Shown: piece by piece, positions 2,781 to 39,410 of the stretch
Layout of the letters: the number at the start of each line of letters is the position of its first letter
Position numbering within the stretch: position 1 is the stretch's first letter
Assembly: GCA_027859055.1 (NCBI GenBank)
Contig: JAQIBO010000311.1
Span: 1-40,572 of the forward strand
Origin: Spirochaeta sp.
GTDB taxonomy: Bacteria; Spirochaetota; Spirochaetia; DSM-27196; Alkalispirochaetaceae
DNA length: 40,572 nucleotides
Reading direction: 5' to 3'
Program-made: the position numbers and the translations under genes
The notes under the pieces: generated by a model
Database searches by the model: none
The model's input: only the letters and a program-made list of their open reading frames with translations
What the model was told of the DNA's origin: nothing

Positions 2781-3697
2781 AGCTGAACCTCCCGGGACTT
2801 CATAATCCGAAGTTGGATTAACGTTATCGCGAACACCAACGCGAACAGCAACGTCGCCTTGGCGCTGGCATACCCGTAGCGGTTGCTCATGTTGAACGCC
2901 TCTTCAAAGATGTTGAGCGCTATCACCTGCGTCGCCCGCCCCGGTCCACCGCCGGTGAGCGCGTAGACAACTTCAAATACCTTGAACGACATATTGAGAG
3001 ACAGAAATACGCCGATCGTCACCGACGGGAGAATCATCGGCAAGACCACCGAACGGAACGCCCGAAACCGAGAGGCGCCGTCCACCTCGGCGGCCTCTAC
3101 CAGTTGCACTGGTACGCCCTGAAGAGCGGCGATGTAGATAACCATCAGGTATCCCACGCCGGCCCACAACGACACGATCAAGATCGAGTAGAACGACCAG
3201 GCGGGATCACCGATCCATTGCTGGTCCAGAAACGAGAACGCACTGAAATCAGCCAAATCGGGCAAGACCTGGGTATAGATAAAGAGCCACATAAACCCGC
3301 CGATGATCATGCTGATCATATTGGGCATGAACAGAATCATGCGGAACGCCACCCGACCCCGGGTCCGTCCTTCCACAAGAACGGCAAGAAAAAGTGCCAG
3401 GACGTTCTGGAAGACCACCATAAACCCGACGTATTTGAGGGTGAACAGTACCGAATCCAGGAAGTACGGGTCCTGCGTCAGCGCTTCCACATAGTTGTCC
3501 AAACCTACGAACCTGGGACTCGGATTGAGGATGTTCCAGTTGGTCAGGCTGTACCACATGCCTCCAAAGGCGGGGACCAACACAAACACGACGTAAAACG
3601 CCAACGCCGGTGCTACAAACCCCAGGATCTGACCGGGCGCCTTCCAGTGATTGAACCGTCTGTTTACCGGCCGTAGCCGACCTTCCATGCCTATCAT
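2777..3697 (-). CDS. Carbohydrate ABC transporter permease, MalF/LacF type
   Basis: A 306-residue permease and partner of the downstream MalG-type protein. It has six membrane helices and the EAA loop EAAEVDGASRFRAF near residue 203. It is the first gene of the minus-strand operon. The usual first gene, an extracellular sugar-binding protein, is missing: upstream are 266 bases without a gene and then the metal ATPase. The ATG at 3697 has no Shine-Dalgarno sequence; CATAAT lies 6 bases before it and AAGACA 18 bases further up, so the message may be leaderless. Confidence 0.92.
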   Translation of the reverse strand: MIGMEGRLRPVNRRFNHWKAPGQILGFVAPALAFYVVFVLVPAFGGMWYSLTNWNILNPSPRFVGLDNYVEALTQDPYFLDSVLFTLKYVGFMVVFQNVLALFLAVLVEGRTRGRVAFRMILFMPNMISMIIGGFMWLFIYTQVLPDLADFSAFSFLDQQWIGDPAWSFYSILIVSLWAGVGYLMVIYIAALQGVPVQLVEAAEVDGASRFRAFRSVVLPMILPSVTIGVFLSLNMSFKVFEVVYALTGGGPGRATQVIALNIFEEAFNMSNRYGYASAKATLLFALVFAITLIQLRIMKSREVQL

Positions 3698-3727
3698 GGC
3701 TGAATTATGAGTGGCGGCGTCCCGGGT
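3698..3727 (-). promoter_or_regulatory. Putative leaderless promoter of the sugar permease operon
   Basis: On the minus strand CATAAT (3709-3704) ends six bases before the ATG at 3697, and a weak AAGACA lies 18 bases upstream of it. No ribosome-binding sequence lies between. The rest of 3728-3963 shows no gene or clear signal. Confidence 0.4.
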
Positions 3728-3963
3728 TGTCTTTTCAGGATGTTAGCAGGCGGGGTTGTACAATTTTGATGTGGCCGGGACGGAAGCCAGGTCGGCGGCC
3801 GGTATTTTCCACCGATCGACTCCGGACCCGGTTACCGCGATCCGAACGGAGCGATCAATTATCAGTTGCATTTCAGTTTTCCTGTTTACGTTCAACCTAT
3901 CAAAGAATTGTGAAGGGCGTATGGAGAGACGGTGAATAGTCGGTAGATTACTCCCATTCCCAC

Positions 3964-5925
3964 TCACGCCGGTTTCCGCAGGAGTCGTAGTCCGTTCAGA
4001 ACGACGATAATCGTGCTGCCCTCGTGGCCCACTACCCCCATGGTGAGAGGCACACCGACGGTAAGCGTCAACACCACCAGCGTCACGACTACCCCCATCG
4101 CGAAGACCACGTTCTGGAGAATCACCCGCCGCGCCCGCCGACTTATCCGAACCGCCCGGACCAACGCTCCGAGATCGTCCGCCATTAACACAACGTCGGC
4201 GCTTTCGAGGGCCGCGTCGGTCCCAGCGGCGCCCATGGCAATTCCGACCTGGGACCGAGCCAACGCGGGAGCATCATTTACACCGTCACCGACCATGGCA
4301 ACCGGACCGTACCGCTCCTGAAGTTTTTCGACCCAGGTCATCTTGTCCTCAGGCATCAGACCGGCGTACATCTCGTCAATTCCCAGACGGTCCGCCATCG
4401 CTCGGGCGGTGGTTTCGTCGTCGCCGGTGAGCATGACAACCCGCTGTATACCGGCGTCCCGGAGGCGTTGTATCTGCTCCGCCGCGTCGGGACGTTCCTT
4501 GTCCATGACGGTGATCGTCCCCAGATATTCGCCGTCGTGCTGGACCTGCAGGACCGTTTTGCGACCCTGCCGACGCAGCTCTTCGACCCGCCCGGTGAGC
4601 GCGGCGTCGGACAAAATACCGCGCGCTTCCATCATCCGCGGCGACCCGATAAGAGTTTCCTTTCCGTTCCAGTGTGCGATTACCCCGCTACCGATGCTCT
4701 CTTCAAAGTATTCCGGTTCCCGCGGCTGAATGCCCGCTTCCCGCGCGTGGCGCACTATCGCCCGGGCTATTGGATGTTGGCTGTGGATTTCCGCTCTGGC
4801 GGCAACGGCGAGCAGGTACTCCGTTGTGATTCCGTCGGCGGGAATAACGTCGGCAACCGCGGGGCGTCCGAACGTGAGAGTGCCGGTCTTGTCGAACGCG
4901 ATGGTACGTATACCGTATAACGCTTCCACGTAGCCTCCGCCTTTGAACAGCACGCCACCGCGGGCTCCCCCGGCGATCGCGCTGAGCACCGTGGCGGGAA
5001 CACTGATAACCAGGGCGCAGGGTGAGGCAACGGTGAGAAGAACCATGGCGCGATAGAAGACGTTTTCAAAAAGGTTGGCCGTCAGGAGCGACATGCCGAC
5101 GATGTACAGCGCCACCAGTACAATGACGCCCATGGCGTAGTACTTCTCGGCCCGGTCCAGAAAGCTTTGCATCGCCGCTTTTCGTTCCCGGGCGTCTTCC
5201 ACCATCGTGATGATCCGGGAGAGGGTGCTTTCCGACGCGGGCTTGCTGACCCGGACGTCAAAGGCTCCGCTCTGATTGAGTGTGCCGGCGAGCACGGCGT
5301 CACCGATCGTCTTGCCCACCGGGAGTGACTCACCGGTGACGGAAGACTCGTCAAAGTAGCCGGTGCCGGAGGCGATCTCGCCGTCCAGGGCAACCCGATC
5401 GCCCGGTCTGAGCACAAAGACGTCATCGGTGACGACGGTATCCAACGGTACATCGACGAGCTCTCGGCCCCGGCGCAGCCGCACCGAATCGGGCCGCAGG
5501 GTAAGGAGCGCAGAAATAGCCTGGTGGGTCCGGCCCATCGCGTAATTTTGCAGGACGTTACTCAGAGAGAAGAGGAATAGTAGCGTAGCCCCCTCCGTCC
5601 ACGCGTCAACGTAGGCGGCTCCCAGGGCGGCGAGAACCATCAGCATGTCCACCTCGACGGTAAATGCCCGGACGGCCCGAATGATCTCCATCGTTGCGAA
5701 AAATCCGCCGAATAGATACGTGGCCACATGAACCGTCAGGACAACGGCCGAGGCAGCCCCGCGCGCCTCAAGAATTACACCGGTCACCAGGCCAATGAGA
5801 GTCAGCACGACAAAAACCGCTTCCACCCGCTCGGAAGCATTTCGCCAGACGTCAAATCGGCCGCGAGAACCGCTTCCATCTACCGGTCCTGTCGCGGACG
5901 ACACTTCTATCATTTCGCTATTCAT
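3964..5925 (-). CDS. Heavy-metal P-type ATPase, P1B-4 (CoaT/CtpD-like) group
   Basis: A 653-residue metal efflux pump. In order: membrane helices from about residue 33, actuator motif TGES (about 197), the metal-site motif SPC in helix 6 (about 301), phosphorylation site DKTGT (about 345), the SQHP motif (about 384), GDGVNDAP, and in the last helix HEGST (about 633). SPC with HEGST and no N-terminal CxxC metal-binding domain is the P1B-4 pattern, whose known members export Co, Zn, Fe or Ni. The ATG at 5925 was chosen over the longer track start because the promoter (TTGACG, 17 bases, TATAAC) ends only 10 bases before it. It is divergent from a TrmB-type regulator and shares an operator with it. 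Confidence 0.93.
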   Translation of the reverse strand: MNSEMIEVSSATGPVDGSGSRGRFDVWRNASERVEAVFVVLTLIGLVTGVILEARGAASAVVLTVHVATYLFGGFFATMEIIRAVRAFTVEVDMLMVLAALGAAYVDAWTEGATLLFLFSLSNVLQNYAMGRTHQAISALLTLRPDSVRLRRGRELVDVPLDTVVTDDVFVLRPGDRVALDGEIASGTGYFDESSVTGESLPVGKTIGDAVLAGTLNQSGAFDVRVSKPASESTLSRIITMVEDARERKAAMQSFLDRAEKYYAMGVIVLVALYIVGMSLLTANLFENVFYRAMVLLTVASPCALVISVPATVLSAIAGGARGGVLFKGGGYVEALYGIRTIAFDKTGTLTFGRPAVADVIPADGITTEYLLAVAARAEIHSQHPIARAIVRHAREAGIQPREPEYFEESIGSGVIAHWNGKETLIGSPRMMEARGILSDAALTGRVEELRRQGRKTVLQVQHDGEYLGTITVMDKERPDAAEQIQRLRDAGIQRVVMLTGDDETTARAMADRLGIDEMYAGLMPEDKMTWVEKLQERYGPVAMVGDGVNDAPALARSQVGIAMGAAGTDAALESADVVLMADDLGALVRAVRISRRARRVILQNVVFAMGVVVTLVVLTLTVGVPLTMGVVGHEGSTIIVVLNGLRLLRKPA

Positions 5926-5956
5926 AGTAGTAGTTGTTATACTAACTACTACTATG
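5923..5956. promoter_or_regulatory. Palindromic operator and bidirectional promoter of metal ATPase and TrmB regulator
   Basis: A perfect 13-base inverted repeat CATAGTAGTAGTT, 8-base centre GTTATACT, then AACTACTACTATG. Each outer end contains an ATG: 5925 on minus (the ATPase) and 5954 on plus. The centre carries TATACT on plus (5938-5943) and TATAAC on minus (5941-5936). The minus -35 is TTGACG at 5964-5959, exactly 17 bases upstream. A regulator bound here would block both promoters. Confidence 0.8.
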
Positions 5957-6016
5957 AACGTCAACCACTATCTGCTTGCCATTAACCACCGTTCCCGGGA
6001 AAATAGGGCAAAATAT

Positions 6017-11258: not shown

Positions 11259-11294
11259 TTGCCGTCCCTTTCCCTGTGGTGGTATGATAGTGGT
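11259..11294 (+). promoter_or_regulatory. Leaderless promoter of MazEF-1
   Basis: TTGCCG (11259-11264), 18-base spacer, TATGAT (11283-11288), then six bases AGTGGT and the ATG. There is no Shine-Dalgarno sequence. Confidence 0.6.
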
Positions 11295-11522
11295 ATGAAA
11301 GTCAAGACTTCCGTCACATTATCTGAAGAGCTGCTTGCAGCGATCGACCAGGAAAAGAGCATTAAAAACCGCTCAGTTCTCGTTGAAGAGGCAACGTGGC
11401 AATATCTTCGAAACCGTCGGCGCCTTGAGCGTGAGAAGCGCGAATTCGAGAAAATCAATCAAAACGCCGCTGCTTTGAATGAAGACGCGTTGGATGTACT
11501 GGATTTTCAAGACCCGTCATGA
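11295..11522 (+). CDS. MazE-like ribbon-helix-helix antitoxin
   Basis: A 75-residue protein. Residues 1-45 ([18 protein letters not shown]) fit a ribbon-helix-helix DNA-binding domain, followed by a basic coiled region and an acidic tail ([13 protein letters not shown]) that would wrap the toxin. The track start is 25 codons too long; the ATG at 11295 sits six bases after a -10 box. The stop overlaps the toxin ATG as ATGA. The antitoxin would neutralise MazF and repress the operon. Confidence 0.87.
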
Positions 11523-11848
11523 AACGGGGAGATATCTATCTCGTCAAGAAACCGTTCTCCGACGATCCGAAAAAACGCCGGGCGTTCGTTGTTGTAAGTC
11601 GACAAATCCTCATTGACTCGAATTACGCTACTGTTATGTGCGCTCCGGTCTTTTCTGCGATCGTTGGTTTGGACACTCAGGTAACAGTTGGTGTCGGGGA
11701 AGGGCTGAAACACGATAGCGCCATACATTGTGATAATCTCGTGAGCTTGCCGAAGTCAGCTCTGACCAATTTCGTTGGTTCTCTCGGTCTTGCGAAGGAG
11801 GCCGAATTGAATAGAGCTCTGGCCGTTGCACTCTCGATCGAAGTGTGA
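11519..11848 (+). CDS. MazF/PemK-family endoribonuclease toxin
   Basis: A 109-residue mRNA interferase. It has the family start [13 protein letters not shown], a conserved Arg and V/VVS strand (RRAFVVVSR), then ATVMCAPV and [18 protein letters not shown] containing the active-site Thr/Ser area. Full length for the family. It is coupled to the antitoxin by a 4-base overlap and is convergent with VapBC 24 bases away. It looks intact. Confidence 0.93.
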
Positions 11849-11871: not shown

Positions 11872-12306
11872 TCATGCCAGTCGCACGCCCAGGCCCACCG
11901 CCCGCGCGCAGGCGTTCAGCGCGGTATCATGAGAGAAGATGTGGACACTTTCAACACTACCCGCCTCGCCGCCGGGGTCCCGGGCCCACAGAAGGGCGGT
12001 GGCAATATGGAACGCATCGAGCGTTCCAATCACGACCGGGAAGCTTTCCGCGGCACGAAGCTTAACCTCCGTGGAGAGCTCCACCAGATCGATGCCCGCC
12101 AGCACCTGCTCCAGCCTGCGGTACGCTTCCACCACGCCATCGTCGTTTAATTCGTTCTGCATTCGTACCCGGTGAATGACCCGCTTGCACTCGATCTCCA
12201 GCAGCTCGCTTGAGATGACGCGGGGATACTCCAGGACGTGCCGGATCGTTATCTCTCCGGCGAGGATGTACCGTAACGCCACGGAGGAGTCCAGATAGGC
12301 GGTCAT
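11872..12306 (-). CDS. VapC-family PIN-domain toxin
   Basis: A 144-residue PIN ribonuclease. The acidic metal-binding residues are in place: D6 in AYLDSS, E34/E37 in SSELLEIE, D97 in GTLDAFHIATA and D127 region in FSHDTAL. Full length. The start overlaps the antitoxin stop (ATGA, 12303-12306). VapC toxins cut tRNA or rRNA and are blocked by the partner antitoxin. Confidence 0.93.
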   Translation of the reverse strand: MTAYLDSSVALRYILAGEITIRHVLEYPRVISSELLEIECKRVIHRVRMQNELNDDGVVEAYRRLEQVLAGIDLVELSTEVKLRAAESFPVVIGTLDAFHIATALLWARDPGGEAGSVESVHIFSHDTALNACARAVGLGVRLA

Positions 12307-12542
12307 CTTTCTCCCCGCTCGGCGGCAAGGTGGTCCATCGGGTCTGACAAGATCAACGGGGAAACATCGGGAAGAACAAGCGGGCCTGCGGCAGGACGAA
12401 CCACCGTTAAACCGGTTGGGAGCGGGCCCAGCACAGCGACCGCCCGGGAGTGGTCGGTGACGATGATAAACTCTCCCGCGGTGACCCGCCGCAGCTCACG
12501 ACTCAAATGTGCCTTCAGTTCGGCGACGCCGATAGTCTTCAT
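12303..12542 (-). CDS. Phd/YefM-type antitoxin of VapBC
   Basis: A 79-residue antitoxin: MKTIGVAELKAHLSRELRRV and GEFIIVTDHSRAVAVLGP are the Phd/YefM DNA-binding domain, followed by a flexible C-terminus ending LAAERGER that binds the toxin. The start codon lies at the edge of an 8-base inverted repeat and six bases after TATACT, so it is probably leaderless and autoregulated. Confidence 0.9.
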   Translation of the reverse strand: MKTIGVAELKAHLSRELRRVTAGEFIIVTDHSRAVAVLGPLPTGLTVVRPAAGPLVLPDVSPLILSDPMDHLAAERGER

Positions 12543-12577
12543 ATGACTAGTATATAGTCATAATTGAGCGGGTGCAA
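12542..12577 (-). promoter_or_regulatory. VapBC promoter and operator
   Basis: Minus strand: TTGCAC (12577-12572), 17-base spacer, TATACT (12554-12549), six bases, ATG. The perfect inverted repeat TATGACTA-GTATA-TAGTCATA (12542-12562) covers the -10 box and touches the start codon, as expected for an autoregulated TA operon. Confidence 0.7.
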
Positions 12578-13099: not shown

Positions 13100-13328
13100 T
13101 ATTATAAAGGCGAGGGAAAGCGAGCACGATTTTGACGGGCCGCCGCCTTTGTGCGACAGGTGTCGTCTTGATATTGATTGGCCGTGAAGCCGTCGGTGGT
13201 TGATGCTCCACCAACCTCGGAAGCTGAACTGTCAAAGACGAACCGTTCGATGGTTCCTGCAAAAGCGATTCCGGAAAAAGCGGACAATACGCCCTGCTGA
13301 CTCCCGGCGCACTGTACCGGAGGTAGAG
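13100..13328 (+). promoter_or_regulatory. Possible promoter and long leader of the xanthine dehydrogenase gene
   Basis: TATTAT at 13100-13105 could be a -10 (weak -35), giving a leader of about 215 bases before the AUG at 13329. The leader has several short stems: CGACA-GG-TGTCG, GGTGG-8 bases-CCACC, GAACC-7 bases-GGTTC. I do not recognise a known riboswitch in it. The stretch 12886-13099 shows nothing. Confidence 0.3.
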
Positions 13329-15989
13329 ATGCAGAATAACGATCCGCACCCGTCGCTCACGTTTACCGTCAACGGAAATCCCGTTCATGTGGACCGGGAA
13401 CCCCGGCGCACACTGCTGACGATTCTGCGGGACGACCTGGGCCTCAGAGGAGCGAAGAACGGGTGCGGCGTGGGCCAGTGTGGCAGTTGTACCGTCCTGG
13501 TGGACGGGAAACCGCGTAAGGCGTGCACGATACGTGCGGAAGCGCTGGACGGCAAAACTGTGGAGACGGTGGAATCGCTGGCCCCGCCCACACAGGACCC
13601 CCGACCTCCGCTCCATCCGATTCAGCAGGCAATGCTTGTCGCCGGGGCGGTGCAATGCGGGTTCTGCACCCCCGGTGTAATAATGACGGTAAAAAGCCTC
13701 CTCGCACGTACCCCGGACCCGACTGATTCCGAGATACGCACCGCGCTGCGGGGCAACCTCTGCCGGTGTACCGGCTATCAGTCAATTGTGGATGCGGTCC
13801 ACCGTGCAGCCCGGGCGCAGGCGGGAGACGCTACCGCCCTGGAGCCCCCGCCGGACGCGCCGGTTCCCCGCCTGGAGGGCTGCGAGAAGGTGACCGGCAC
13901 CCTCTCCTACGCGGATGACCTCTCCCGACCGGACATGCTCTACGGGGCGTTTCTTTTCTCGGAACACACCTATGCGGACGTGCTTGCAATCGATACCTCC
14001 GCGTGTTCCCGGGAGGAGGGGGTCCACCTCGTACTCACCGCGCAGGATATTCCCGGGCGAAACGGATTCGGGCTGCAAATTCCACACCAGCAGGTGTTTG
14101 CCGGCGAGCGTGCACGGTATCTCGGCGAGGTGATCGCCTGCGCCGTGGCGGATACAGAGGATGCCGCGCGTGTGGCGCTGGACCGCGTATCCGTGCAGTA
14201 CCGGCGGTTGGAGCCACTTCGGGATCCGGCGGAGAACATGCGCCCCGACGCGCCGCTGATTCACCCGGATGGAAACATCGCGGAGCACATCGGCTTCACC
14301 CGCGGAGACCCGGACGCAGCGTTTGCGGAGGCTGATCTTGTAATCGAGGGTGAGTACCACGTACCCCCGATCGAACACGCGTACCTTGAGCCGGAATCCT
14401 GCCTGGCAGTCCCGGGTGAGAACGGCTACACCGTGACCGTGTACGCAGCAACCCAGGGTGCATTTTCCTTTCGGGATATGATAGCTGCTTCTCTTGATCT
14501 GCCGGTGGAGCAGGTGCGGGTGGTGCAGACGATGCCCGGTGGTGGTTTTGGCGGCAAAGAGGAGCCCACCGTGCACATCCAGGCGGCCCTCGCCGCCGTC
14601 CGCACCGGACGTCCCGTAAAGATCACCCTCAACCGCCGCGAATCGATCCGCATCAGCACAAAGCGCCACGGCGCGGTGATCCGGATGAGCCACGCCGTCC
14701 GTTCCGACGGGACGTTGATCGGTGTACGTTCTCGCGCCGTCTGCGACGCCGGAGCGTACCTCTCGCTCACCAGGCCGGTGGTCTTCCGCACGGTTGTGTG
14801 CGCGGCAGGGCCCTACGCGATACCCAACGTCCAGGCGGAAGGATACGGCGTCTATACGACCACCAATCCCTCCGGCGCGTTTCGCGGTTTTGGAAGCACC
14901 CAGGTGGCGTTTGCCGCGGAGCGACAGATGGACAAGATCGCGCGTAAACTGGGAATCGACCCGCTGGAACTGCGCCGGAAAAACGGACTGGAAGCGGGAA
15001 AACGGACGATCACCGGGCAGCTGCTCCGGGTGGACGGCACCGGGTATATCGCCACCCTCGACGCCGTAGAACGCACACTGAACGAGGAGCGGGATGCGCT
15101 TCTGGCAGCTCCCCTGGAGCCGGGATGGGAACGCGCCATCGGAATCGCCAGCTCCTACAAAAACGTGGGCCTCGGCAAGGGCCTGCCCGACGCCGCCGGC
15201 GCGGAAGTGGAGTTGACGCCCGAGGGAACCGTTCTCGTTCGCGTGGGCGCAACCGATATGGGACAGGGATCGGACACCGTCTTTGCCCAGATTGCCGCCC
15301 GGGCGCTTCACGTCAACTACGACCGTGTCCGGGTCATCTCCAGTGACACCGCCCAGTGTCCCGACGGCGGCATGACCACCGCCAGCCGGCAGACCTACGT
15401 CACCGGCAACGCGGTGCGTCTGGCGGCGGAGAAACTCGCCGCGCGGCTGCCGGACGCCCCGCTGCCCGCGCGGGAACGGGTGGTCTACACCTCTCCGGAA
15501 ACGATCCCCCTCGCATACGGGGATGGCCCCGGCGCGGATGGAAACATCCACTTCGCGTTCTGTTACGCTACCCACGCGGTAGTAACCGCGGTTAATCGAC
15601 GGAGCGGCGCTGTCCGCGTTGAACGCGTGATCGCCGCCGCCGATGCGGGAACGGCGATCCACCTGCAAAACATCAGAGGCCAGATTGAGGGTGGTGTGGT
15701 GATGGGCCTCGGCTACGGCCTCTCGGAGCAGTACATCCACGAGGACGACCGGATCGTAACCGACACGTTTGCAAAACTGGGTGTACCAAAGGCGGATGTC
15801 TCGCCGACTATTGCCAGCAGCGTAATAGAGATAGCCGATCGCGACGGGCCCTACGGCGCAAAGGGGCTCGGCGAGGTACCCCTCAACCCGGTGGCACCGG
15901 CGATCGCCAACGCGCTCGCCTCGATTCTGGGTACGGAGATTGATACGCTGCCGATTACCCCGGAGCGGGTTACCGGCAGCGGTCTATAA
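13329..15989 (+). CDS. Xanthine dehydrogenase-type molybdenum hydroxylase, fused Fe-S and Mo subunits (selenium-dependent type)
   Basis: An 886-residue fusion. Residues 1-155 are the two [2Fe-2S] domains: C46, C51, C54 (CGVGQCGSC) and C66, then QCGFCTPG and NLCRCTGY. From about 180 the molybdopterin subunit follows, with [27 protein letters not shown], and the active-site Glu in GAKGLGE. This fused layout without an FAD subunit matches the selenium-dependent xanthine dehydrogenase family, and a carbamate kinase next door is typical of that cluster. It would hydroxylate purines such as xanthine or hypoxanthine. GGAGG lies five bases before ATG 13329; the upstream 43 residues in the track are not domain sequence. 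Confidence 0.87.
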
Positions 15990-22281: not shown

Positions 22282-22417
22282 GCGCCGGTCCCGATTTCCG
22301 GGCAGAAGTACGACTCCTGGATCGTATAGACGAAGCGCTCCTTAAGGTCCCTCTGAATAGTCGTGCTCCTCGAAAGGAGCCTTCGCAATAATTCCGGGTC
22401 TAGGGTAGATTTGAATC

Positions 22418-22669
22418 GTGAAGTATGACGTCGAGATCAAACCTCGAGCGATTAAGGATCTCCGTAGGATAAATACGGATCAGGCAACAAAAATTGCCAA
22501 TTCATTGGAAGGCCTTCGGGATGGTTTGCGAGGCGACGTGAAAAAGTTAACGAATCACACGCCGGAGTACAGGTTGCGAGTCGGCACGTACCGAGTCTTG
22601 TTTGAGATTGTCGAACCCGACTGCGTGGTCGTATATCGGATAGTACATCGACGAGAGGCATACCGGTGA
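22418..22669 (+). CDS. RelE/ParE-family toxin
   Basis: An 83-residue toxin of the RelE fold: KPRAIKDLRRI at the start, DVKKLTNHTPEYRLRVGTYR in the middle and VVVYRIVHRREAYR at the end, all matching ribosome-dependent mRNA interferases. The start is GTG at 22418, six bases after TAGATT, with TTCGCA 18 bases further up, so a leaderless message is likely. The antitoxin follows, the reverse of the usual antitoxin-toxin order. Confidence 0.9.
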   Translation: MKYDVEIKPRAIKDLRRINTDQATKIANSLEGLRDGLRGDVKKLTNHTPEYRLRVGTYRVLFEIVEPDCVVVYRIVHRREAYR

Positions 22670-22680
22670 TAGGAGGGTCT

Positions 22681-22875
22681 ATGGAACTGCATCCCCAGGT
22701 ACTCGAAAAAGACGGAAAGAAAGAGTTCGTAATCCTGCCGTACGAGGAGTATGAACGGATCGCGGAAACTCTGAATGACTACGATGATCTACGGGAATTG
22801 CGGGAGGCGAAGAGTCAAGAGTCCGATGCCGCGACCCGATCGCTGACTGACGTACGAGGGGCGCTGGGGATTTAG
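22681..22875 (+). CDS. Phd/YefM-like antitoxin of the RelE pair
   Basis: A 64-residue protein: MELHPQVLEKDGKKEFVILP and YEEYERIAETLNDYDDLREL, then a charged tail. This is the antitoxin normally encoded after this RelE group. ATG 22681 with AGGAGGG in front is preferred to the GTG at 22666. It starts 11 bases after the toxin stop. Confidence 0.85.
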   Translation: MELHPQVLEKDGKKEFVILPYEEYERIAETLNDYDDLRELREAKSQESDAATRSLTDVRGALGI

Positions 22876-23782: not shown

Positions 23783-24331
23783 TCACTCCTCTGGGCGCAA
23801 TTCGGCCACTCTTGAGGCGGAGCGGCCGTCGATTTCGTCCTGGGCCTGTTGGGCAAGGCGGTACGCCTCCGCGGCGACGCGCATATCCGCAGCGGAGGGA
23901 GAACCGGGGGCGTGGGCCGCGTTCAGTACCACGCGTGCCTTCTTGAGGGTGGCTGACGGGTCCCCTGGTACGGGGTCGAGGTCAACCCCGATTCGGCCGC
24001 CGGTGGCTACCACTTCTCCCTCCGGCCCGCGAGCGGTATCGTACATGACCGGAGTGGTAGCATAGGGGCCGAGAGTGCGCGCGTGTGAACGCTCATGGTG
24101 GCGCACCTCACCGTCGCGAAGCCGTGCTTCCGGCGAAAGAACCACCTCGTAATCCTGTGAGCTCCGCCGGATCGCTTGATCATCGGAACCCAGGGAAATG
24201 ACGATCACCGACTCTTTGCGAGGAGCCGATGCGGTGCCTTGCGCGGCGTGGTGGTTTGCTGATGTGCCGGCCGGTGTGGGCGTGCGATGGGGTGACGCAC
24301 TGCCCACGCCGAAATCGTAAACGACCCGCAT
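23783..24331 (-). CDS. SprA-related putative metalloprotease
   Basis: A 182-residue protein. The conserved block is EVRHHERSHARTLGPYAT, including the zinc-protease motif HERSH (HExxH), then RGPEGEVVATGGRIGVDL and PVPGDPSATLKKARVV, and an alpha-helical end with LAQQAQDEI. This matches the SprA-related family, predicted metalloproteases of unknown substrate. The N-terminal 40 residues are low complexity with no signal peptide. ATG 24331 is seven bases after TATACT, inside the end of the previous gene, and has no ribosome site. Confidence 0.8.
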   Translation of the reverse strand: MRVVYDFGVGSASPHRTPTPAGTSANHHAAQGTASAPRKESVIVISLGSDDQAIRRSSQDYEVVLSPEARLRDGEVRHHERSHARTLGPYATTPVMYDTARGPEGEVVATGGRIGVDLDPVPGDPSATLKKARVVLNAAHAPGSPSAADMRVAAEAYRLAQQAQDEIDGRSASRVAELRPEE

Positions 24332-24336: not shown

Positions 24337-24660
24337 TCAGTATATCGCTAAATCAAAACGATGTGATCCCTGGAAGGGGAAGGTAACCGGTTTGAAATAG
24401 TGATACAGGTAGAGCGCCATGCCGATCAACATGACCCCCGCCGTGTGCCAGAACAGCACGATCGGTCCGGCGGCGAGGGCCGCAGCGTCAAAGGGGAGAG
24501 GCGGCACTTCCATGAAGCTCCCGCCGGTAACGATGGAGCCCCAGACGAGGAGTGCCAGGATGTAGCCGAGTCTGAAATCTCGTTTGTTTTCGATGGTGCC
24601 CTTGAGGACTGAACCGTCACTGCGCAGTCCGGCGGTTCCGAAACGCCAGTTTGAGTACAA
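24337..24660 (-). CDS. Small membrane protein, two to three helices
   Basis: A 107-residue membrane protein: RDFRLGYILALLVWGSIVTG, then GPIVLFWHTAGVMLIGMALY, with conserved-looking His and Phe residues. No family is recognised. The frame is open from TTG 24660, which overlaps the upstream small membrane gene by 44 bases; TATCAT lies five bases upstream. The start is uncertain, as the likely structured part begins near residue 20. It sits between another small membrane gene and the SprA-like gene. Confidence 0.55.
   Translation of the reverse strand: MYSNWRFGTAGLRSDGSVLKGTIENKRDFRLGYILALLVWGSIVTGGSFMEVPPLPFDAAALAAGPIVLFWHTAGVMLIGMALYLYHYFKPVTFPFQGSHRFDLAIY
24371..24391. repeat. Short dispersed repeat, copy 3
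   Basis: TGGAAGGGGAAGGTAACCGG T, almost identical to the left half of copy 1 at 22243. Here it lies inside the 3' end of the small membrane gene 24337-24660. Confidence 0.4.
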
Positions 24661-24844: not shown

Positions 24845-24945
24845 TCTGCCAATATCGCGATACGCGGGCAGTACGGGCAAGCAGAACAGGGTAAGCCGGA
24901 ACGACGAGCGCACCGATCCATCGGTGCGATATTCCATTCCCCCTG

Positions 24946-28614: not shown

Positions 28615-28995
28615 TTATCCTTCGACGATGAAGGTTCCCCACATGCCTCGAGCCCGGTGGTTTCCGACGCTGCAGTAGAACTCGAACTCACCCGCCTCGT
28701 CCGCGACAAACTCGATTGTCTCGGAGGTGCCACCGCTGTACTGGCTGGTAGCGGCGTCAAATTCATCGATTACCCAGTCGTGAAAACCACCGGTATTTCG
28801 AAAGGTCAGCCGAATACGGTCGCCTTCGTTGACGCGGATTTCCTCGGGAATGAAGCTCAGCCCGTCGTTTTCAACGGTTATTTCCTTCACCGATGCACTA
28901 CTATCAGTAACGTCGATGACCTCCTGAGCTATCGCAGGAAGAGCGGCCAGCAGGACAAACAAAAGACTAATAACGACGATCCTTATTGTTTTCAT
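28615..28995 (-). CDS. Periplasmic cupredoxin (blue copper) domain protein
   Basis: A 126-residue exported protein with a signal peptide (MKTIRIVVISLLFVLLAALPAIAQ). The cupredoxin fold has the expected type 1 copper ligands: His in GGFHDW, Cys in FEFYCSVGNH, the His of that motif, and Met in RARGMWG. It would carry electrons or buffer copper in the periplasm. ATG 28995 is six bases after TATCTT with TTGACT 18 bases further up, and there is no ribosome site. The longer track start at 29031 is rejected. Confidence 0.9.
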   Translation of the reverse strand: MKTIRIVVISLLFVLLAALPAIAQEVIDVTDSSASVKEITVENDGLSFIPEEIRVNEGDRIRLTFRNTGGFHDWVIDEFDAATSQYSGGTSETIEFVADEAGEFEFYCSVGNHRARGMWGTFIVEG

Positions 28996-29031
28996 GGTGG
29001 CAAGATAGATATTGTATACCTGCATAGTCAA
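28996..29031 (-). promoter_or_regulatory. Leaderless promoter of the cupredoxin gene
   Basis: Minus strand TTGACT (29031-29026), 18 bases, TATCTT (29007-29002), GCCACC, ATG. Confidence 0.6.
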
Positions 29032-30424: not shown

Positions 30425-30534
30425 GTACATGATTATACGCTGACATACACGCAAACGGAACAGCAATTTTCCAGTTGCAGGGTATCAAAAACGGCGATCG
30501 AGGAGCTGCTCCACCGGAGGGTTGCGCCGGCTTA

Positions 30535-31671: not shown

Positions 31672-33708
31672 ATGAATGGCATACGGAATATATTGATCAT
31701 TGGCGGCGTTGCCGCCGGCGCAACTGCAGCCGCCCGGGCGCGACGCCTGAACAGTGCGGCAAACATCACGATCCTTGAGGCTGGGTCCGACGTGTCCTTC
31801 GCCAATTGCGGTCTGCCGTACTACCTCGGCGGCGATATCCAACACCGATCCTCACTGATCCTCGCGAGTCCGCAGACGTTTCGGGACCAGTACAACGTGG
31901 ACGTCCACACCAACACGCAGGCGTTGCGGATCGATCGCGAGCACCGGCGCGTCTTTGCGCAGAACACCGCGAGCGGCGAGGAGCACATTTACGATTACGA
32001 TTCTCTGATTCTCGCGCAGGGCGGGAAGCCGATCGCGCCCCCGATTCCCGGCGCCGATTCCGAGCACGTGTTTCAGCTCTGGACACTCGACGACATGGAC
32101 CACATAGATCGGTTCATCGAAGAACGCGCCCCGGAATCCGCGGTCGTTGTCGGCGGTGGTTTTATCGGGCTTGAGATGGTGGAAGCCCTTCGGAAGCGTG
32201 GCATGGACGTTGCACTGGTGGAGATGGCACCGCACGTGATGCCCAACCTCGAGGGCGAGTTCGCCGGGTTTCTGCAGAAGGAACTCCTTGATTACGGGGT
32301 CGACCTTCGTCTCGGACGGTCCCTCACCGCGATCGGCGACGGGACCGCCACGCTAAGCGACGGCACCACCGTAGACGCGGACTTTGTTCTGCTCTCGGTC
32401 GGGGTGCGTCCCACCCTGACTCTTGCGCAGGATGCGGGACTCGAGATCGGAACCGCCGGCGGACTCAGCGTCTCCGAGACGCTCCAGACCAGCGACGAGC
32501 GAATTTTTGCAGCAGGTGACATGGTTGAGGTCACACACACGATCCAGGGGCGGACCGTACGGATGCCCCTTGCCGGCCCCGCCAATCGCCAGGGCCGCAT
32601 CGTCGCGGAAAACGCCCTTGGTGGTGCGCGGCGATACCGGGGTGCATCGGGAACCTCCGTCGTGAAGCTCTTTGGAGCGGTCGCCGGGGCGACGGGACTC
32701 AGCCTGGCCGCGGCACGGGAGGCGGGGTTCGACGCGGATGCAGTGGTCGTCCACAAAGCCAGCCACACCGCGTACTACCCGGGTTCGGAAAAGGTCAGTC
32801 TCATGGTGATCTACGATCGGGAGACCGGAGCAATTCTCGGCGGCCAGGCCGGCGGTCGCGTCGGTGTCGACAAGCGTATTGATGTGATCGCCACGGCGAT
32901 AGCCGGCGGTCTGACGGTAGCGGACCTTGAGGAGCTCGACCTGGCGTATGCACCGCCGTTCAACAGCCCCAACGGACCGGTGAATATGGTCGCCTTCACC
33001 GCGGAGAACAAGCGGTCAGGTTTCAGTCCGGCGATTCTTGCGCAGGATCTGGAGACGTTTGCCATCGACCGGCAGCCGATCGTGATCGATCTCCGTGATC
33101 CGATCAGCTTTGGCAAGGCCAACCTCGCGGGAAGCAACAACCTGAGTCAGAATATGCTGCGAGAGAACCTGGACCAGATTCCACGGGAACACCCGATCGT
33201 GCTGATCAGCGACGATGGACAGAAGGGGCACGTTGTTTTGCGGATGCTCGCAGGAGCCGGATTTGAGACGGTGTACAACCTGAGCGGCGGATATATCTCG
33301 CTTGAGCGTCACGCCCGGGCGGTCGGATACGAGCACCTCCGCGTCGGCCTGCTGCCGGTTGAGCCCAAATCGATCGAGGATCTGGAACACGGCATCACCG
33401 CCGCTGGGATCGACGCCGCCGCGACCGCCGATGCGAACACCGACGCGATCTCCGGAGACGGACCGCTGGTGATCGACGTGCGGACGCCGATGGAGTTTTC
33501 GATGGGCGCCTACCCCGGTGCGGTGAACATATCCCTCGACGAACTTCCCGCCCGGGTCGCCGACCTCGGCGACAAGAACCGCGAGATCATCCTGTACTGC
33601 GCCTCCGGAGCGCGCTCAGCGTATGGGCAGCGAATTCTGCAGCAGCTCGGATATACCAACGTCCGGAACGGTGGAAGTCTCCACGACGTAATGGCCGCGC
33701 AGGCGTAA
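31672..33708 (+). CDS. CoA-disulfide/polysulfide reductase with two C-terminal rhodanese domains
   Basis: A 678-residue flavoprotein. Residues 1-450: FAD site IIGGVAAGATAAARARR, the redox Cys in FANCGLPYY (C46) typical of CoADR/Npsr enzymes, NAD site VVVGGGFIGLEMVEAL near 158, and AAGDMVEV near 280. From about 460 there is a rhodanese domain whose active-site loop reads ISDDGQKG, without Cys. The last 100 residues are a second rhodanese with an intact loop YCASGARS. Such proteins reduce CoA disulfide, per- or polysulfides; the rhodanese passes sulfur to CoA. AGGAG precedes the ATG. Monocistronic, with its own terminator. Confidence 0.92.
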   Translation: MNGIRNILIIGGVAAGATAAARARRLNSAANITILEAGSDVSFANCGLPYYLGGDIQHRSSLILASPQTFRDQYNVDVHTNTQALRIDREHRRVFAQNTASGEEHIYDYDSLILAQGGKPIAPPIPGADSEHVFQLWTLDDMDHIDRFIEERAPESAVVVGGGFIGLEMVEALRKRGMDVALVEMAPHVMPNLEGEFAGFLQKELLDYGVDLRLGRSLTAIGDGTATLSDGTTVDADFVLLSVGVRPTLTLAQDAGLEIGTAGGLSVSETLQTSDERIFAAGDMVEVTHTIQGRTVRMPLAGPANRQGRIVAENALGGARRYRGASGTSVVKLFGAVAGATGLSLAAAREAGFDADAVVVHKASHTAYYPGSEKVSLMVIYDRETGAILGGQAGGRVGVDKRIDVIATAIAGGLTVADLEELDLAYAPPFNSPNGPVNMVAFTAENKRSGFSPAILAQDLETFAIDRQPIVIDLRDPISFGKANLAGSNNLSQNMLRENLDQIPREHPIVLISDDGQKGHVVLRMLAGAGFETVYNLSGGYISLERHARAVGYEHLRVGLLPVEPKSIEDLEHGITAAGIDAAATADANTDAISGDGPLVIDVRTPMEFSMGAYPGAVNISLDELPARVADLGDKNREIILYCASGARSAYGQRILQQLGYTNVRNGGSLHDVMAAQA

Positions 33709-33722: not shown

Positions 33723-33857
33723 GACGATGCGCGGGTGACTGCGGTCTATGTGCCGAGATATGCGCCAACGTCGAAATCGGCCTGGTTGAGAAAGTTCGGA
33801 AGCGTTGTCCGTGTTCAAAATCTTGACTATGCAACATGGTCATAATAGTCGTCACGT

Positions 33858-34137
33858 ATGCATGTGGTAACGATTCACGAAGCCAAGGCGACGTTGTCAC
33901 GGTTGACCGAGGAAGCTTTGTCGAGGCAAGAGGTCGTCATTGCGCGGAGAAACAAGCCGCTTGTACGGATCGTTCCATTGGAACAGCCGGCAACGCGCCG
34001 CCGTCACGCTGGACCTTCCGATGATTCACAAGGATCCCTTTGACCGCTTGATCATCGCCCAGGCGCATCACAACAACCTTCCCGTCCTGTCGTCGGATCC
34101 CGTCTTTGCGGAGTATGGGGTAACGAATCTGTTCTGA
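33858..34137 (+). pseudogene. Phd antitoxin joined to the tail of a PIN toxin by deletion
   Basis: The frame from ATG 33858 is a Phd/YefM antitoxin N-terminus (MHVVTIHEAKATLSRLTEEA, VVIARRNKPLVRIVPLE) that soon loses sense. From about 34003 another frame reads LPMIHKDPFDRLIIAQAHHN and SSDPVFAEYGV, the C-terminal third of a VapC/PIN toxin. The antitoxin end and two thirds of the toxin are deleted. TTGACT lies 17 bases before a weak TAGTCG six bases from the ATG, the same spacing as the intact TA promoters. Confidence 0.7.
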
Positions 34138-35209: not shown

Positions 35210-35244
35210 TTGAAGCGCGATCGACTGGGTGATATTCTATACAC
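35210..35244 (+). promoter_or_regulatory. Leaderless promoter of CcdAB
   Basis: TTGAAG (35210-35215), 17 bases, TATTCT (35233-35238), six bases ATACAC, ATG. No ribosome site. Confidence 0.65.
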
Positions 35245-35475
35245 ATGAAAGAACACACGAAACGCCGTACCAATGTGAGTATAGATAGCGACCTTTTTGA
35301 AGCGGCCCGAGCGCGCGGGATGAAGCTGTCCTCTCTTCTGGAGGTCGCTATTCGTGAGAAGCTCCGGCAGGCGGCATCGGAGCAATGGCTCGAGGAAAAC
35401 CGCGAAGCTATCAGGACATATAAACGGGAGAGTGTCGAACACGGTGTCTTCTCCGATGGGCTCAGAAGTTTCTGA
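35245..35475 (+). CDS. ccdA: CcdA-family antitoxin
   Basis: A 76-residue antitoxin. The N-terminal ribbon-helix-helix (RRTNVSIDSDLFEAARARGM) binds DNA. The C-terminal text EQWLEENREAIRTYKR and EHGVFSDGLRSF is the typical CcdA tail that wraps CcdB. The stop TGA shares its A with the toxin ATG (TGATG). It is intact and directly translatable from a leaderless message. Confidence 0.93.
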   Translation: MKEHTKRRTNVSIDSDLFEAARARGMKLSSLLEVAIREKLRQAASEQWLEENREAIRTYKRESVEHGVFSDGLRSF

Positions 35476-35792
35476 TGGCCCAATTCGACATCTATCTGAA
35501 CGAGGACAAATCGACACAGACCCGTTTCCCGTACCTCCTTGATATACAGGTAGATTTGCTGTCCGACCTGCCGACTCGGCTTGTTGTCCCTCTTCGTCGC
35601 GGTACCGGCGCTGAACCGTGGGTAGTGTCTCGATTGCATCCCGTGCTGGAGTTGGGTGACACGTCCGTGGTCGCTGTCTTTTCGGAAATGGCCGCCGTAT
35701 CGTCGAACGTTCTCGGCAACAGGCTTGGAGATGCTCGCAGGCAGCGGACGGAACTCATCGCGGCCGTCGATCTGATGGTGACGGGTTTCTGA
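35475..35792 (+). CDS. ccdB: CcdB-family toxin
   Basis: A 105-residue protein matching CcdB gyrase poisons over its full length: AQFDIYLN at the start, FPYLLDIQVDLLSDLPTRLV, then VVPL, a middle with LHPVLELGD and the end DLMVTGF where CcdB has the gyrase-binding Trp-Gly-Ile. The C-terminal Trp is absent here, as in several chromosomal homologues. Coupled to ccdA. Confidence 0.92.
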   Translation: MAQFDIYLNEDKSTQTRFPYLLDIQVDLLSDLPTRLVVPLRRGTGAEPWVVSRLHPVLELGDTSVVAVFSEMAAVSSNVLGNRLGDARRQRTELIAAVDLMVTGF

Positions 35793-36232: not shown

Positions 36233-36245
36233 CGTGGTCAGCCTC

Positions 36246-36953
36246 TCAGATTGTCGCGGCGTCGGCCGCCGCGCCCCGGTGGGCCCGTGCCGAGGATGTC
36301 ATCCGCCCGACGATCGCTGGAGTCTCGTGGATAAGCGCGTCATCGGTCAGCGCCTCCACCATAAACAGCGCGAAATCGGTGCGTCGCGTCATGTTGCTCG
36401 CAAGGACCGGATCACCGACGTGATGACTCCATACCGGCAGCCCCTCGCTCTCGCCCTCTTCGAGATCGCTCCCGCGGACGACCGTCCAGCGGCGCGGGCT
36501 GGCAAATATCCGCCGGCACGCCTCAACCTGGTCGCGGAGATCAACCGCGCGGAAGAGACGCGCGATCCACCCGATCACCGCGACCATCATGAGGAACCAC
36601 CGGGAATATACGTCCTGCCCGTCGCGTGTGATGTGCCAGCCGCAGGAGAATACGAGGCGCGCCTCCGGATCCGCGTAATCCAGCACGGCCCGTGCGGTTC
36701 CAGACGCGTATCCGTGCACACCCCACGGAACGAGGACCGTCAGCACCCCGTCGCACCCCGAGACCGCGGTGCGGATCACTTCGCGATCGTTGGTCGGCCC
36801 CGGGACAATTTTGATCCGGTCGGCAAAATCGGCAAGCTTGTCCACGCTCTGTTCCCGGCAGACGCCGACCACCGCGTATCCGCGATCGAGGGCGTGCTGT
36901 ACCATATACCGTCCGAGTTTGCCCGACGCTCCGACGATGCAGACTTTTTTCAT
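36246..36953 (-). CDS. NAD(P)-binding NmrA-like protein
   Basis: A 235-residue atypical SDR. The N-terminal motif GASGKLGRYMVQHALDRGY binds NAD(P); VVRGSDLEEGE and a C-terminal helix follow as in NmrA/YwnB-like proteins. It lacks a clear Tyr-x3-Lys pair, so it may be a redox sensor or isomerase rather than a dehydrogenase. GGAGG lies five bases before the ATG. Divergent from the TetR gene 37006, which probably controls it, and followed by the broken DUF4386 gene. Confidence 0.85.
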   Translation of the reverse strand: MKKVCIVGASGKLGRYMVQHALDRGYAVVGVCREQSVDKLADFADRIKIVPGPTNDREVIRTAVSGCDGVLTVLVPWGVHGYASGTARAVLDYADPEARLVFSCGWHITRDGQDVYSRWFLMMVAVIGWIARLFRAVDLRDQVEACRRIFASPRRWTVVRGSDLEEGESEGLPVWSHHVGDPVLASNMTRRTDFALFMVEALTDDALIHETPAIVGRMTSSARAHRGAAADAATI

Positions 36954-36969
36954 GTGGTCCTCCCGAAAC

Positions 36970-37005
36970 TTGACTTACGCTGTAAGGTAAGCGTACAGTG
37001 TAAGT
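36970..37005 (+). promoter_or_regulatory. Promoter and operator between NmrA-like and TetR genes
   Basis: TTGACT (36970-36975), 18 bases, TACAGT (36994-36999), six bases, ATG 37006. An imperfect 12-base inverted repeat ACTTACGCTGTA/TACAGTGTAAGT (one mismatch) spans 36973-37005 and contains the palindrome CTTACGCTGTAAG. Confidence 0.65.
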
Positions 37006-37695
37006 ATGTCAAGAGGAAAATTTATCGCTGCAGCGGATAGGTCGAATGGTGAACGCGCACGCCTCAGCAGAGACCGCGTTCTCGAGACTGCGCTGCGGAT
37101 CGCAGACCGAGACGGTCTCGAAACACTTTCCATGCGCAACCTTGCCGCAGAACTCGGGGTCAAGGCTATGTCGCTCTATAACCACGTTGCCAACAAGGAC
37201 GCAATCATCGACGGGATCGTGGATCGCGTCGTGACCGAGATCGAGCTTCCTCCGCGTTCTACCGACTGGAAAGAGGCGATGCGGCGGCGGGCGCACTCCG
37301 CGCACCGGGTTCTGCTGCGGCATCGCTGGGCCACGGGGGCGATCGTCTCCCGCGTCAACGCGGGGCCGGGAATGCTGCGATATGTCGATGCGACGGTCGG
37401 GTGTCTGCACGACGCGGGGTTCTCCTACGAGATGGCGGACCATATCTGGAACGCGATGGACAGCTATATCTACGGGTTTACGCTCCAGGAGTTGAACTTT
37501 CCGTTTCGCCCGGATGAGCACGCAAGTGCGGCACGCGAATTCCTGCCGCAGATCGCGCCCGGGGAATACCCCGACTTCGTCGCGCTCGCCCGGCTGGTCG
37601 CCGAGGAAAAGCATACCGGTGTGCACGACTTCGCGTTCGGGCTCAATCTGATTCTCGACGGGCTCGAGCGACACCGGGGCGGTTCTCCCCAGTAG
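37006..37695 (+). CDS. TetR-family regulator, TetR_C class
   Basis: A 229-residue repressor. HTH: RVLETALRIADRDGLETLSM and RNLAAELGVKAMSLYNHVAN, very like TetR itself. The C-terminal part (HRVLLRHRWATGAIVS, ADHIWNAMDSYIYGF) fits the TetR_C ligand domain. ATG 37006 follows a -10 box by six bases with no ribosome site. The palindrome at the start suggests autorepression and control of the divergent NmrA-like gene. Confidence 0.92.
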   Translation: MSRGKFIAAADRSNGERARLSRDRVLETALRIADRDGLETLSMRNLAAELGVKAMSLYNHVANKDAIIDGIVDRVVTEIELPPRSTDWKEAMRRRAHSAHRVLLRHRWATGAIVSRVNAGPGMLRYVDATVGCLHDAGFSYEMADHIWNAMDSYIYGFTLQELNFPFRPDEHASAAREFLPQIAPGEYPDFVALARLVAEEKHTGVHDFAFGLNLILDGLERHRGGSPQ

Positions 37696-37754
37696 TATCG
37701 GTAGCATCACCGTTTTGTTGTGCGACAAGACGGAAAAGACAGAACAGAACCGAC

Positions 37755-37789
37755 TTGTCGAGTTGTTATACTGGGGTTATACTGAAGGT
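37755..37789 (+). promoter_or_regulatory. Leaderless promoter of MazEF-2
   Basis: TTGTCG (37755-37760), 17 bases, TATACT (37778-37783), six bases GAAGGT, ATG 37790. Confidence 0.65.
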
Positions 37790-38041
37790 ATGAAGACCGC
37801 AATCTCACTACCTGATTCATTGTATGAGGACGCCGAACGGACCGCCCGGGAAATGGGGATTCCTCGCAGTCAGCTGTTTGCACGAGCCGTATCGGAATTC
37901 ATAAAGAGACACCAGAGAGAAGAGATCACCCAGAGGTTGAACGAAGTCTACGAAAGAATGGAAGACCAGACTACACCCGAATTACCGACCGAACCCTCAG
38001 TTGAAACGACGGGAGAACTCACCAGAAATGACACGTGGTGA
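37790..38041 (+). CDS. MazE-like ribbon-helix-helix antitoxin (second pair)
   Basis: An 83-residue antitoxin: MKTAISLPDSLYEDAERTAR and RSQLFARAVSEFIKRH form the ribbon-helix-helix, followed by a coiled stretch and an acidic tail. The track start is 25 codons too long. It overlaps the toxin gene by 14 bases. The sequence is not close to the MazE-like protein at 11295, so the two pairs are not a recent duplication. Confidence 0.9.
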   Translation: MKTAISLPDSLYEDAERTAREMGIPRSQLFARAVSEFIKRHQREEITQRLNEVYERMEDQTTPELPTEPSVETTGELTRNDTW

Positions 38042-38369
38042 ACTGTGGTGGACCGACTTCGGGATACCCTTCGGCAGCGAACATGGGTTCCCGCGACCGG
38101 TGCTCGTCGTACAGGATGATGCCTATACCCAGAGCAGGCTCAACACCGTAGTCGTCATACCGCTCACGACGAACCTGGTATTAGCAGAAGCCCCTGGAAA
38201 TGTTTTCCTGTCCAAAGCGGAGTCCAGCCTGGCCAAAGACTCCGTCATTGTGGTAACGCAGCTTTCAGCAATTGACAAGAAGAGACTGATAGAAAACATC
38301 GGTACAGTAACCCGGGAGACAATGGAAGATATCGAAACTGGAATCGCTATGGTACTGGGTATAGAATGA
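38028..38369 (+). CDS. MazF/PemK-family toxin (second pair)
   Basis: A 113-residue endoribonuclease: MTRGELWWTDFG, GFPRPVLVVQDD with the conserved Arg-Pro-Val, NTVVVIPLTTN with the active Thr, and VVTQLSAIDKKRL. ATG 38028 is preferred to the track start. It is full length and intact. Confidence 0.93.
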   Translation: MTRGELWWTDFGIPFGSEHGFPRPVLVVQDDAYTQSRLNTVVVIPLTTNLVLAEAPGNVFLSKAESSLAKDSVIVVTQLSAIDKKRLIENIGTVTRETMEDIETGIAMVLGIE

Positions 38370-38651
38370 TTTTTGCATAACACGTATCAGGCCAGGGCGC
38401 TATCGGCAAAAGCTACGCTTTCGCCTTCGCCGGGCGTTCCGTTCAGATGTGATTGTTACATGGGCACCACTCAAAACTCGGCTGAATGTTGCGGGTAACG
38501 GAGGGTCCGGGCAAAAACCATTCGCGGCCCCATCGAGAAGACCGTCGTTCCCGGACCGAAGGGACCCGGCGGACGACCGCGTAATGCGCCGAACCGACGC
38601 TTTACACGAAACCATAACAACCAATTATTATTAATATTGTCACCATTGATG
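38370..38651. other. Gap without a recognised gene
   Basis: I see no gene here. There are short GC-rich inverted stretches near 38395-38440 (AAAGCTACGCTTTCGCCTTC) but no convincing terminator. The AT-rich 38610-38650 leads into the response regulator promoter. Confidence 0.4.
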
Positions 38652-38663
38652 TATCTTAGTGGT

Positions 38664-39410
38664 ATGAACCGGAAGGAACGGCGGGGGAAGATCCTGATTG
38701 TGGAAGACGATCAGGCAATAGTTGATCTCATCAATCTGCATCTCACGGATGAGGGATATGAGACGTCGGTGACATCCGACGGCGCGGAGGCGATTTCCCG
38801 CGCAGCTTCCGGAGACATTGACCTGGTAATCCTGGACATCATGCTTCCGGGAATGGACGGACTGTCGATATGTCGCCATCTCAGGGGTGACAATAGCCAG
38901 GTGCCCATACTCATGCTGACCGCGCGGTCCGCGGAGATGGACAAGGTTGTAGGATTGGAGGTTGGCGCGGACGACTATATCACCAAACCGTTCAGCGTCA
39001 GGGAGCTTGTGGCGCGGGTACGGGCGCTTCTTCGCCGTGCCGGGACGGAGCATTCCGGGTATATCCATACCGACGGCGTGTCTTCCCGGAGGGTTGCGGA
39101 TATTGCAGCGCTCCACATTGATCTTGACCAAAGGCGGGTTTCCGTAGGCGGAAGGGAGGTGGAACTTACCGCCAAGGAGTTCAATCTCCTGGCGGTCCTG
39201 GCGGGGGAGCCCGGACGTGCATACAGCCGGGCCGAACTGCTGGAAATGGTCTGGGGATACCGGTATGAGGGGTACAACCATACGGTGAACAGTCACATTA
39301 ACCGTCTTCGGGGAAAGATAGAGAACGATCCGGCACACCCGGAGTTGATAGAGACGGTCTGGGGATACGGGTATCGTCTGTCTGACGGCAGATCGGCGGC
39401 AGCGAGGTGA
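38664..39410 (+). CDS. OmpR/PhoB-family response regulator
   Basis: A 248-residue regulator. Receiver domain: acidic pair ED (about 14-16), phospho-acceptor D58 in LVILDIMLPG, Thr in LMLTAR, Lys in DDYITKPFS. The C-terminal winged helix (VELTAKEFNLLAVLAGEPGR and YNHTVNSHINRLRGKIENDP) binds DNA. ATG 38664 is six bases after TATCTT and has no ribosome site; the track start is nine codons earlier. The stop overlaps the kinase GTG (GTGA). Confidence 0.95.
   Translation: MNRKERRGKILIVEDDQAIVDLINLHLTDEGYETSVTSDGAEAISRAASGDIDLVILDIMLPGMDGLSICRHLRGDNSQVPILMLTARSAEMDKVVGLEVGADDYITKPFSVRELVARVRALLRRAGTEHSGYIHTDGVSSRRVADIAALHIDLDQRRVSVGGREVELTAKEFNLLAVLAGEPGRAYSRAELLEMVWGYRYEGYNHTVNSHINRLRGKIENDPAHPELIETVWGYGYRLSDGRSAAAR

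Follow-up and report, generated by a model that had tools for sequence, protein, structure and literature searches.

TANNNT boxes are in excess six and seven nucleotides upstream of start codons across a Spirochaeta sp. genome, and we read them, with a probability of roughly 0.9, as the −10 elements of sigma-70-type promoters that would start leaderless mRNAs at about 7% of genes, chiefly those of toxin-antitoxin (TA) operons. The window, by which we mean the whole stretch of 40,572 nucleotides analysed, is contig C384 of a 4.38-Mb assembly in 534 contigs (91% complete, with an estimated contamination of 6%). Its GC content is 58.8%, against 58.4% over the sampled contigs, and its tetranucleotide profile correlates with that of the genome at r=0.95 (contig median 0.92); as both match the other contigs, the window belongs to this genome. 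We rejected contamination as an origin of the signal, given that fit and the presence of boxes on 41 of 101 contigs. The closest GyrB matches, at 66-68% identity, come from MAGs labelled Treponema sp., Spirochaetaceae and Spirochaetales, and an earlier note on this DNA had guessed rightly that it was spirochaete-like. Neither Rfam nor tRNA scanning of the window gave any match.

Position of the box relative to start codons

The earlier note had relied on starts picked by eye, and each box that it listed lies where it was said to lie: eight exact TANNNT matches at 6 nt from the start codon, two at 7 nt, and two near-matches (upstream of 3697 and 24844). We sampled 100 contigs in addition to the window, amounting to 789 kb of readable sequence or about 18% of the genome, 14 short contigs having yielded N only, and located genes with a home-made, codon-based finder that was trained on these 789 kb and picked starts without any upstream motif. 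A genome-wide TANNNT scan, as the note had proposed, run on starts that were thereby unbiased for the box, gave a peak at 6-7 nt. Upstream of in-frame ATG codons in the 789 kb we counted 28 boxes at 6 nt and 18 at 7 nt, compared with about 9 at other distances; the corresponding counts for in-frame GTG codons were 12, 9 and about 4. With both codons pooled, the 6-nt position had 40 boxes and the 7-nt position 27, versus about 13 per other position, so that 67 were observed at the two distances where 26 were expected (P~2e-11), an excess equal to about 7% of 556 genes. Out-of-frame ATG and GTG triplets from the same stretches gave a flat profile with no TANNNT peak, and the in-frame peak persisted when the window was left out (36 and 25 at 6 and 7 nt, versus about 13). 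The chance rate of one in 64 that had been assumed is close to the measured background, about 1.2% for each position upstream of an in-frame ATG. Since about 26 of the 67 boxes (some 40%) would fall at 6-7 nt by chance, any single site needs a −35 element or conservation in its support.

We also searched for motifs by EM, beginning from random motifs and treating the gene starts as latent. The best solution had two separate classes: the Shine-Dalgarno (SD) motif AGGAG at 5-8 nt, and TA[C/T]AAT, for which distances of 6-7 nt account for 42% of the spacing mass. The weight of the latter class was 30%, which together with the 42% spacing share corresponds to about 12% of genes by EM, and we put the leaderless-type share at about 7% of genes, with a range of 7-12%. 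A strict pattern, TTGAC...TATAMT, was too narrow and had no matches. The looser TTGA-N19..21-TANNNT-N6-ATG matched this genome 65 times, versus 3 times for the reversed control and 11 times with N12 in place of N6.

Promoter character of the boxes and sites in the window

A sigma-70-type promoter should carry a TTGACA-like −35 hexamer 16-18 nt upstream of its −10, and upstream of the 67 boxes at 6-7 nt we found a peak at 17-18 nt: with at least four of six matches to TTGACA, 16 hexamers lay at a spacer of 17 and 7 at a spacer of 18, compared with about 2 for other spacers. Where the box stood at some other distance from the start, no such sharp peak was seen. The box also distinguished genes by operon position, occurring at 31 of 229 operon-leading genes versus 2 of 215 operon-inner genes (P=7e-8). 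Box and SD were nearly mutually exclusive, although this exclusion is partly forced, as the box occupies the place of the SD. Several starts that carry a box are anchored by homology, namely those of PhdYefM antitoxins (position 1 of profile PF02604) and the N-termini of seryl-tRNA synthetase, Rrf2 and PtsI.

Conservation of individual promoters points the same way. We compared eight cupredoxin loci from seven genomes (the window gene, a second copy in its own genome, and a single locus from each of six other genomes in the genus or order), whose proteins share 53-60% identity. In every one of them a TANNNT ends exactly 6 or 7 nt ahead of the start codon that leads into the signal peptide, and a TTG hexamer, read from the sequences, stands 17-18 nt upstream of the box, whereas the remaining upstream sequence has diverged. 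With TANNNT expected by chance at 1.2% per position, its presence at all eight loci is no coincidence. A CcdA relative (genome G368) has the box at 7 nt, and two PemK operons of this genome (loci L232 and L233), the one at 37790 in the window and its second copy on contig C312, have the box in common.

Exact spacing, a −35 at 17-18 nt, operon-leading position, near exclusion of the SD and conservation among orthologues thus give good support to the leaderless-promoter reading that the earlier note put forward. Under this reading, a −10 TANNNT with a TTGACA-like −35 at 17-18 nt would form an ordinary sigma-70-type promoter, from which RNA polymerase would start on the A or G of the start codon or about one base away at most. 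The resulting message, very likely leaderless to judge from its promoter, would be translated from its 5’-terminal start codon without SD pairing, and downstream genes of the operon would be translated by SD or by coupling. The predicted users are operon-leading genes: regulators, cupredoxin, PtsI, seryl-tRNA synthetase and, above all, TA operons, in which an autoregulatory operator may sit between −35 and −10.

A less probable reading, which we hold as a tentative one, is that these same promoters start 1-4 nt before the codon and make ultra-short leaders, at least where the box lies at 7-10 nt. The EM spacing mass at 8, 9 and 10 nt is indeed above background (6-8% each), a slight rise that makes leaders of 1-4 nt likely in some cases; the strongest peak, however, is at 6 nt, so that the usual start point, the seventh base after the box, falls on the codon itself. 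That A+T-rich DNA before starts merely throws up TANNNT, or that the box is a translation signal, we consider very improbable and rejected: boxes do occur at other distances at the background rate, but neither idea fits the single-base precision, the −35 spacing, the absence from operon-inner genes, the flat out-of-frame controls or the retention of the box amid diverged upstream DNA.

The window's boxes differ in how well they are supported. The earlier note had given most of them a TTGnnn-like −35; this is clear for six, which are also the best-supported sites in the window (28995, 35245, 12542, 37790, 11295 and 37006), and weak or absent for 22418, 24331, 30424 and 38664. Pfam matches agree with the identities given below for the PemK/MazF toxins at 11519 and 38001, the PhdYefM and PIN pair at 12542/12306, the ParE-family toxin at 22418, CcdA and CcdB, the TetR regulator at 37006, the response regulator and kinase at 38664/39407, the cupredoxin at 28995 and the SprA-related protein at 24331. 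The cupredoxin gene with its signal peptide (reverse strand, ATG 28995) has TATCTT at 29002-29007, 6 nt before the start, and TTGACT at 29026-29031 with a spacer of 18. For the CcdA antitoxin (forward strand, ATG 35245), which precedes CcdB (35475-35792; both Pfam), TATTCT at 35233-35238 ends 6 nt before the start, and TTGAAG lies at 35210-35215 (spacer 17). The PhdYefM antitoxin of a vapBC pair (reverse strand, ATG 12542, the start being PF02604 profile position 1; PIN toxin at 11872-12306) has TATACT at 12549-12554, again at 6 nt, and TTGCAC at 12572-12577 (spacer 17). Two genes lie ahead of MazF/PemK toxins on the forward strand: the RHH-like antitoxin at ATG 37790 (toxin 38001-38369), with TATACT at 37778-37783 and TTGTCG at 37755-37760 (spacer 17), and the gene in antitoxin position at ATG 11295 (locus L237; toxin 11519-11848, Pfam PemK/MazF), with TATGAT at 11283-11288 and TTGCCG at 11259-11264 (spacer 18); both boxes are at 6 nt. 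The sixth site belongs to a TetR-family regulator (forward strand, ATG 37006), with TACAGT at 36994-36999, 6 nt before the start, and TTGACT at 36970-36975 (spacer 18).

The other four are weak candidates for leaderless starts, and with boxes arising by chance at the above rate 22418, 38664 and 30424 are unproven, as they have neither a −35 nor conservation behind them. TAGATT at 22406-22411 (forward strand) lies 6 nt before GTG 22418 and has no clear −35; TATCTT at 38652-38657 (forward) lies 6 nt before ATG 38664, the start of a response regulator that is followed by a histidine kinase (39407-40459), with a weak −35; and TATAAT at 30432-30437 (reverse), also with a weak −35, lies 7 nt before ATG 30424, the start of a 240-aa protein with a signal-peptide-like N-terminus and no family. 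Upstream of the SprA-related family protein at ATG 24331 (reverse), TATACT at 24339-24344 lies at 7 nt and is preceded by a −35-like TCACAT with a spacer of 17. The two near-matches, both on the reverse strand and 6 nt before their starts, are not TANNNT and are unproven: CATAAT at 3704-3709, before the ABC transporter permease at ATG 3697, and GATATT at 24851-24856, before ATG 24844, a doubtful start since it opens a 75-aa ORF without a family match.

One further site was missing from the earlier list. At 33823-33851 on the forward strand, a −35 TTGACT, a 17-nt spacer with an operator-like repeat, and a decayed −10, TAGTCG, end 6 nt before ATG 33858. This codon begins a short PhdYefM antitoxin fragment of 61 aa (33823-34043 including the promoter) with no recognisable toxin after it; an intact relative on contig C417 has TATCCT at 6 nt, and 33823-34043 appears to be what is left of a vapBC module. 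The window also encodes a 929-aa single-chain molybdenum hydroxylase (13200-15989) in which the 2Fe-2S and both molybdopterin-binding domains are fused, and a 678-aa pyridine nucleotide-disulphide oxidoreductase with rhodanese domain(s) (31672-33708), an architecture like that of CoA-disulphide reductase.

Toxin-antitoxin operons and spread in the Spirochaetia

TA genes are numerous in this 4.4-Mb genome, with about 33 PIN, 21 PhdYefM and 9 PemK matches, and five or six modules lie in the 40-kb contig (11295-12542, 22418-22875, 33858, 35245-35792 and 37790-38369). One of these has the reverse order: at 22418-22875 the first gene is a ParE/RelE-family toxin, to which the leaderless-type start belongs, and the antitoxin (22666-22875) comes second. 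A genome of the same genus (G352) had no PIN match.

Locating the PIN, PhdYefM and PemK genes of the genome gave 32 operons with a definable first gene. Of these, 18 had a box at 6-7 nt, 10 had an SD and one had both. Fifteen of the 18 boxes were at 6 nt, where the background is 1.4 per distance (P~4e-11). Compared with other operon-leading genes (31 of 229), TA operons were thus far more often of the leaderless type, with an odds ratio of 8.2 (P=3e-7). The over-representation of TA operons noticed earlier in the window is therefore real, and it is common to relatives: in 11 further genomes, almost all from the order, a box at 6-7 nt preceded 24 of 59 vapBC operons, many of these boxes having TTGAC about 17 nt upstream, and in one genome of the same genus (G374) the proportion was 12 of 22.

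The preference does not extend to every antitoxin. Among 63 PhdYefM antitoxins sampled across the class by best score, a sample biased to the highest scores, 48 had an SD and 6 a box at 6 nt, and the proposal that antitoxins are mostly leaderless across the class or across antitoxin families was rejected. In six YefM-type loci of relatives (L244, L249, L250, L254, L257 and L263), a palindromic GTAC...GTAC repeat contains the TANNNT at 6 nt, and in antitoxins of this type the operator-like repeat and the putative leaderless −10 seem to coincide.

We searched 41 genomes of the class with patterns that place the box 6 nt or 12 nt before the start. Outside one family (f7), the 6-nt pattern outnumbered the 12-nt pattern in all 33 genomes, and did so at P<0.01 in 25. 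The eight genomes of that family, which are small (0.9-1.9 Mb; e.g. G075, G100 and G105), had no peak, with 305 matches at 6 nt versus 311 at 12 nt. The predicted leaderless signature is accordingly present in nearly all sampled families of the Spirochaetia, the exception being one of small genomes.

Why TA operons, and relation to known systems

The account of the TA excess that we favour most, while giving it somewhat less than even odds, is that it is a by-product of compact mobile modules, whose autoregulated promoter, with the operator in the spacer between −35 and −10, would abut the first codon and function in any host. TA promoters must be self-contained, and several vapBC promoters have operator-like inverted repeats between −35 and −10, e.g. 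TTGACTTAGTCCGGTGATCGGACTAATATCATAATATG; yet other TA modules with equally compact operators retain an SD. The earlier note had proposed stress physiology instead, with a leaderless antitoxin mRNA still translated when canonical initiation is blocked. The roughly 8-fold odds of TA operons would suit this, as would the same bias in M. tuberculosis (32 of 37 TA pairs; PMC3898074) and the sustained translation of leaderless messages under stress there (PMC8485053). Against it stand the SD-type TA operons of this genome, the SD in most top-scoring YefM-type antitoxins of relatives and the identity of the leaderless-type gene at 22418 as a toxin. Supply of antitoxin under stress is plausible by analogy alone, and as the cause of the excess we think it unlikely. 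At slightly longer odds still, type II TA modules of the VapBC kind in the Spirochaetia might have been selected for leaderless promoters, convergently with mycobacteria, because leaderless initiation would survive a toxin or stress block of SD initiation, with the promoter class lost in the one small-genome family. We argue rather that leaderless expression is a general promoter option, one that fits short, self-contained, autoregulated modules and is not confined to antitoxins, as is suggested by the toxin gene with a leaderless-type start at 22418, by the TA operons that have an SD and by the ordinary genes that use this option (PtsI, SerRS, Rrf2, cupredoxin).

The use of such promoters in a spirochaete is less of a surprise than the earlier note supposed. 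Of 18 Spirochaetes genomes, Zheng et al. 2011 predicted 6 to have TANNNT leaderless genes, at 1.8-6.9% of genes (PMC3160421), and dRNA-seq of Leptospira interrogans in 2017 placed the 5’ end at the start codon of 170-184 genes (PMC5243855). Our boxes resemble the class of Zheng et al. in that TANNNT lies some 12 bp before the start (counted from its first T), an SD is absent and the genes are operon-leading, and differ in their share of about 7-12% of genes, in their uncultured Spirochaetia lineage and in a clear −35. L. interrogans likewise has many transcripts that begin at the start codon, mapped there and predicted from sequence here, but it belongs to another spirochaete lineage and no −10 motif or TA link was reported for it. 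In Deinococcus-Thermus, where TANNNT also stands at a fixed spacing to the ORF, the Deinococcus motif was shown by experiment to act as a −10 and was strengthened by an added −35 (PMC12340547); about 30% of ORFs are involved there, whereas the present lineage relies mainly on SD.

The closest parallel for the TA operons is M. tuberculosis, in which Cortes et al. 2013 found leaderless transcripts for the 32 TA pairs cited above and for 7 of 14 tRNA synthetase genes (PMC3898074), and in which starvation and nitric oxide have less effect on leaderless translation (PMC8485053). TA operons are preferentially of the leaderless type in both, as are some tRNA synthetase genes; mycobacteria lack the conserved −35 that is clear here, and their starts come from TSS mapping. 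TANNNT leaderless genes in Spirochaetes and a TA preference in M. tuberculosis were thus already known, and what appears to be new is the lineage, the clear −35, the conservation of leaderless-type vapBC across a spirochaete order and a family without the signal. Genes of this type will be missed, or given a wrong start, by annotation programs that require an SD. A signature known mainly from Actinobacteria and Deinococcus-Thermus would extend through most sampled spirochaete families with a TA bias like that of M. tuberculosis, and as the bias is found in spirochaetes too, why TA messages lose their leaders becomes testable in a second, unrelated phylum.
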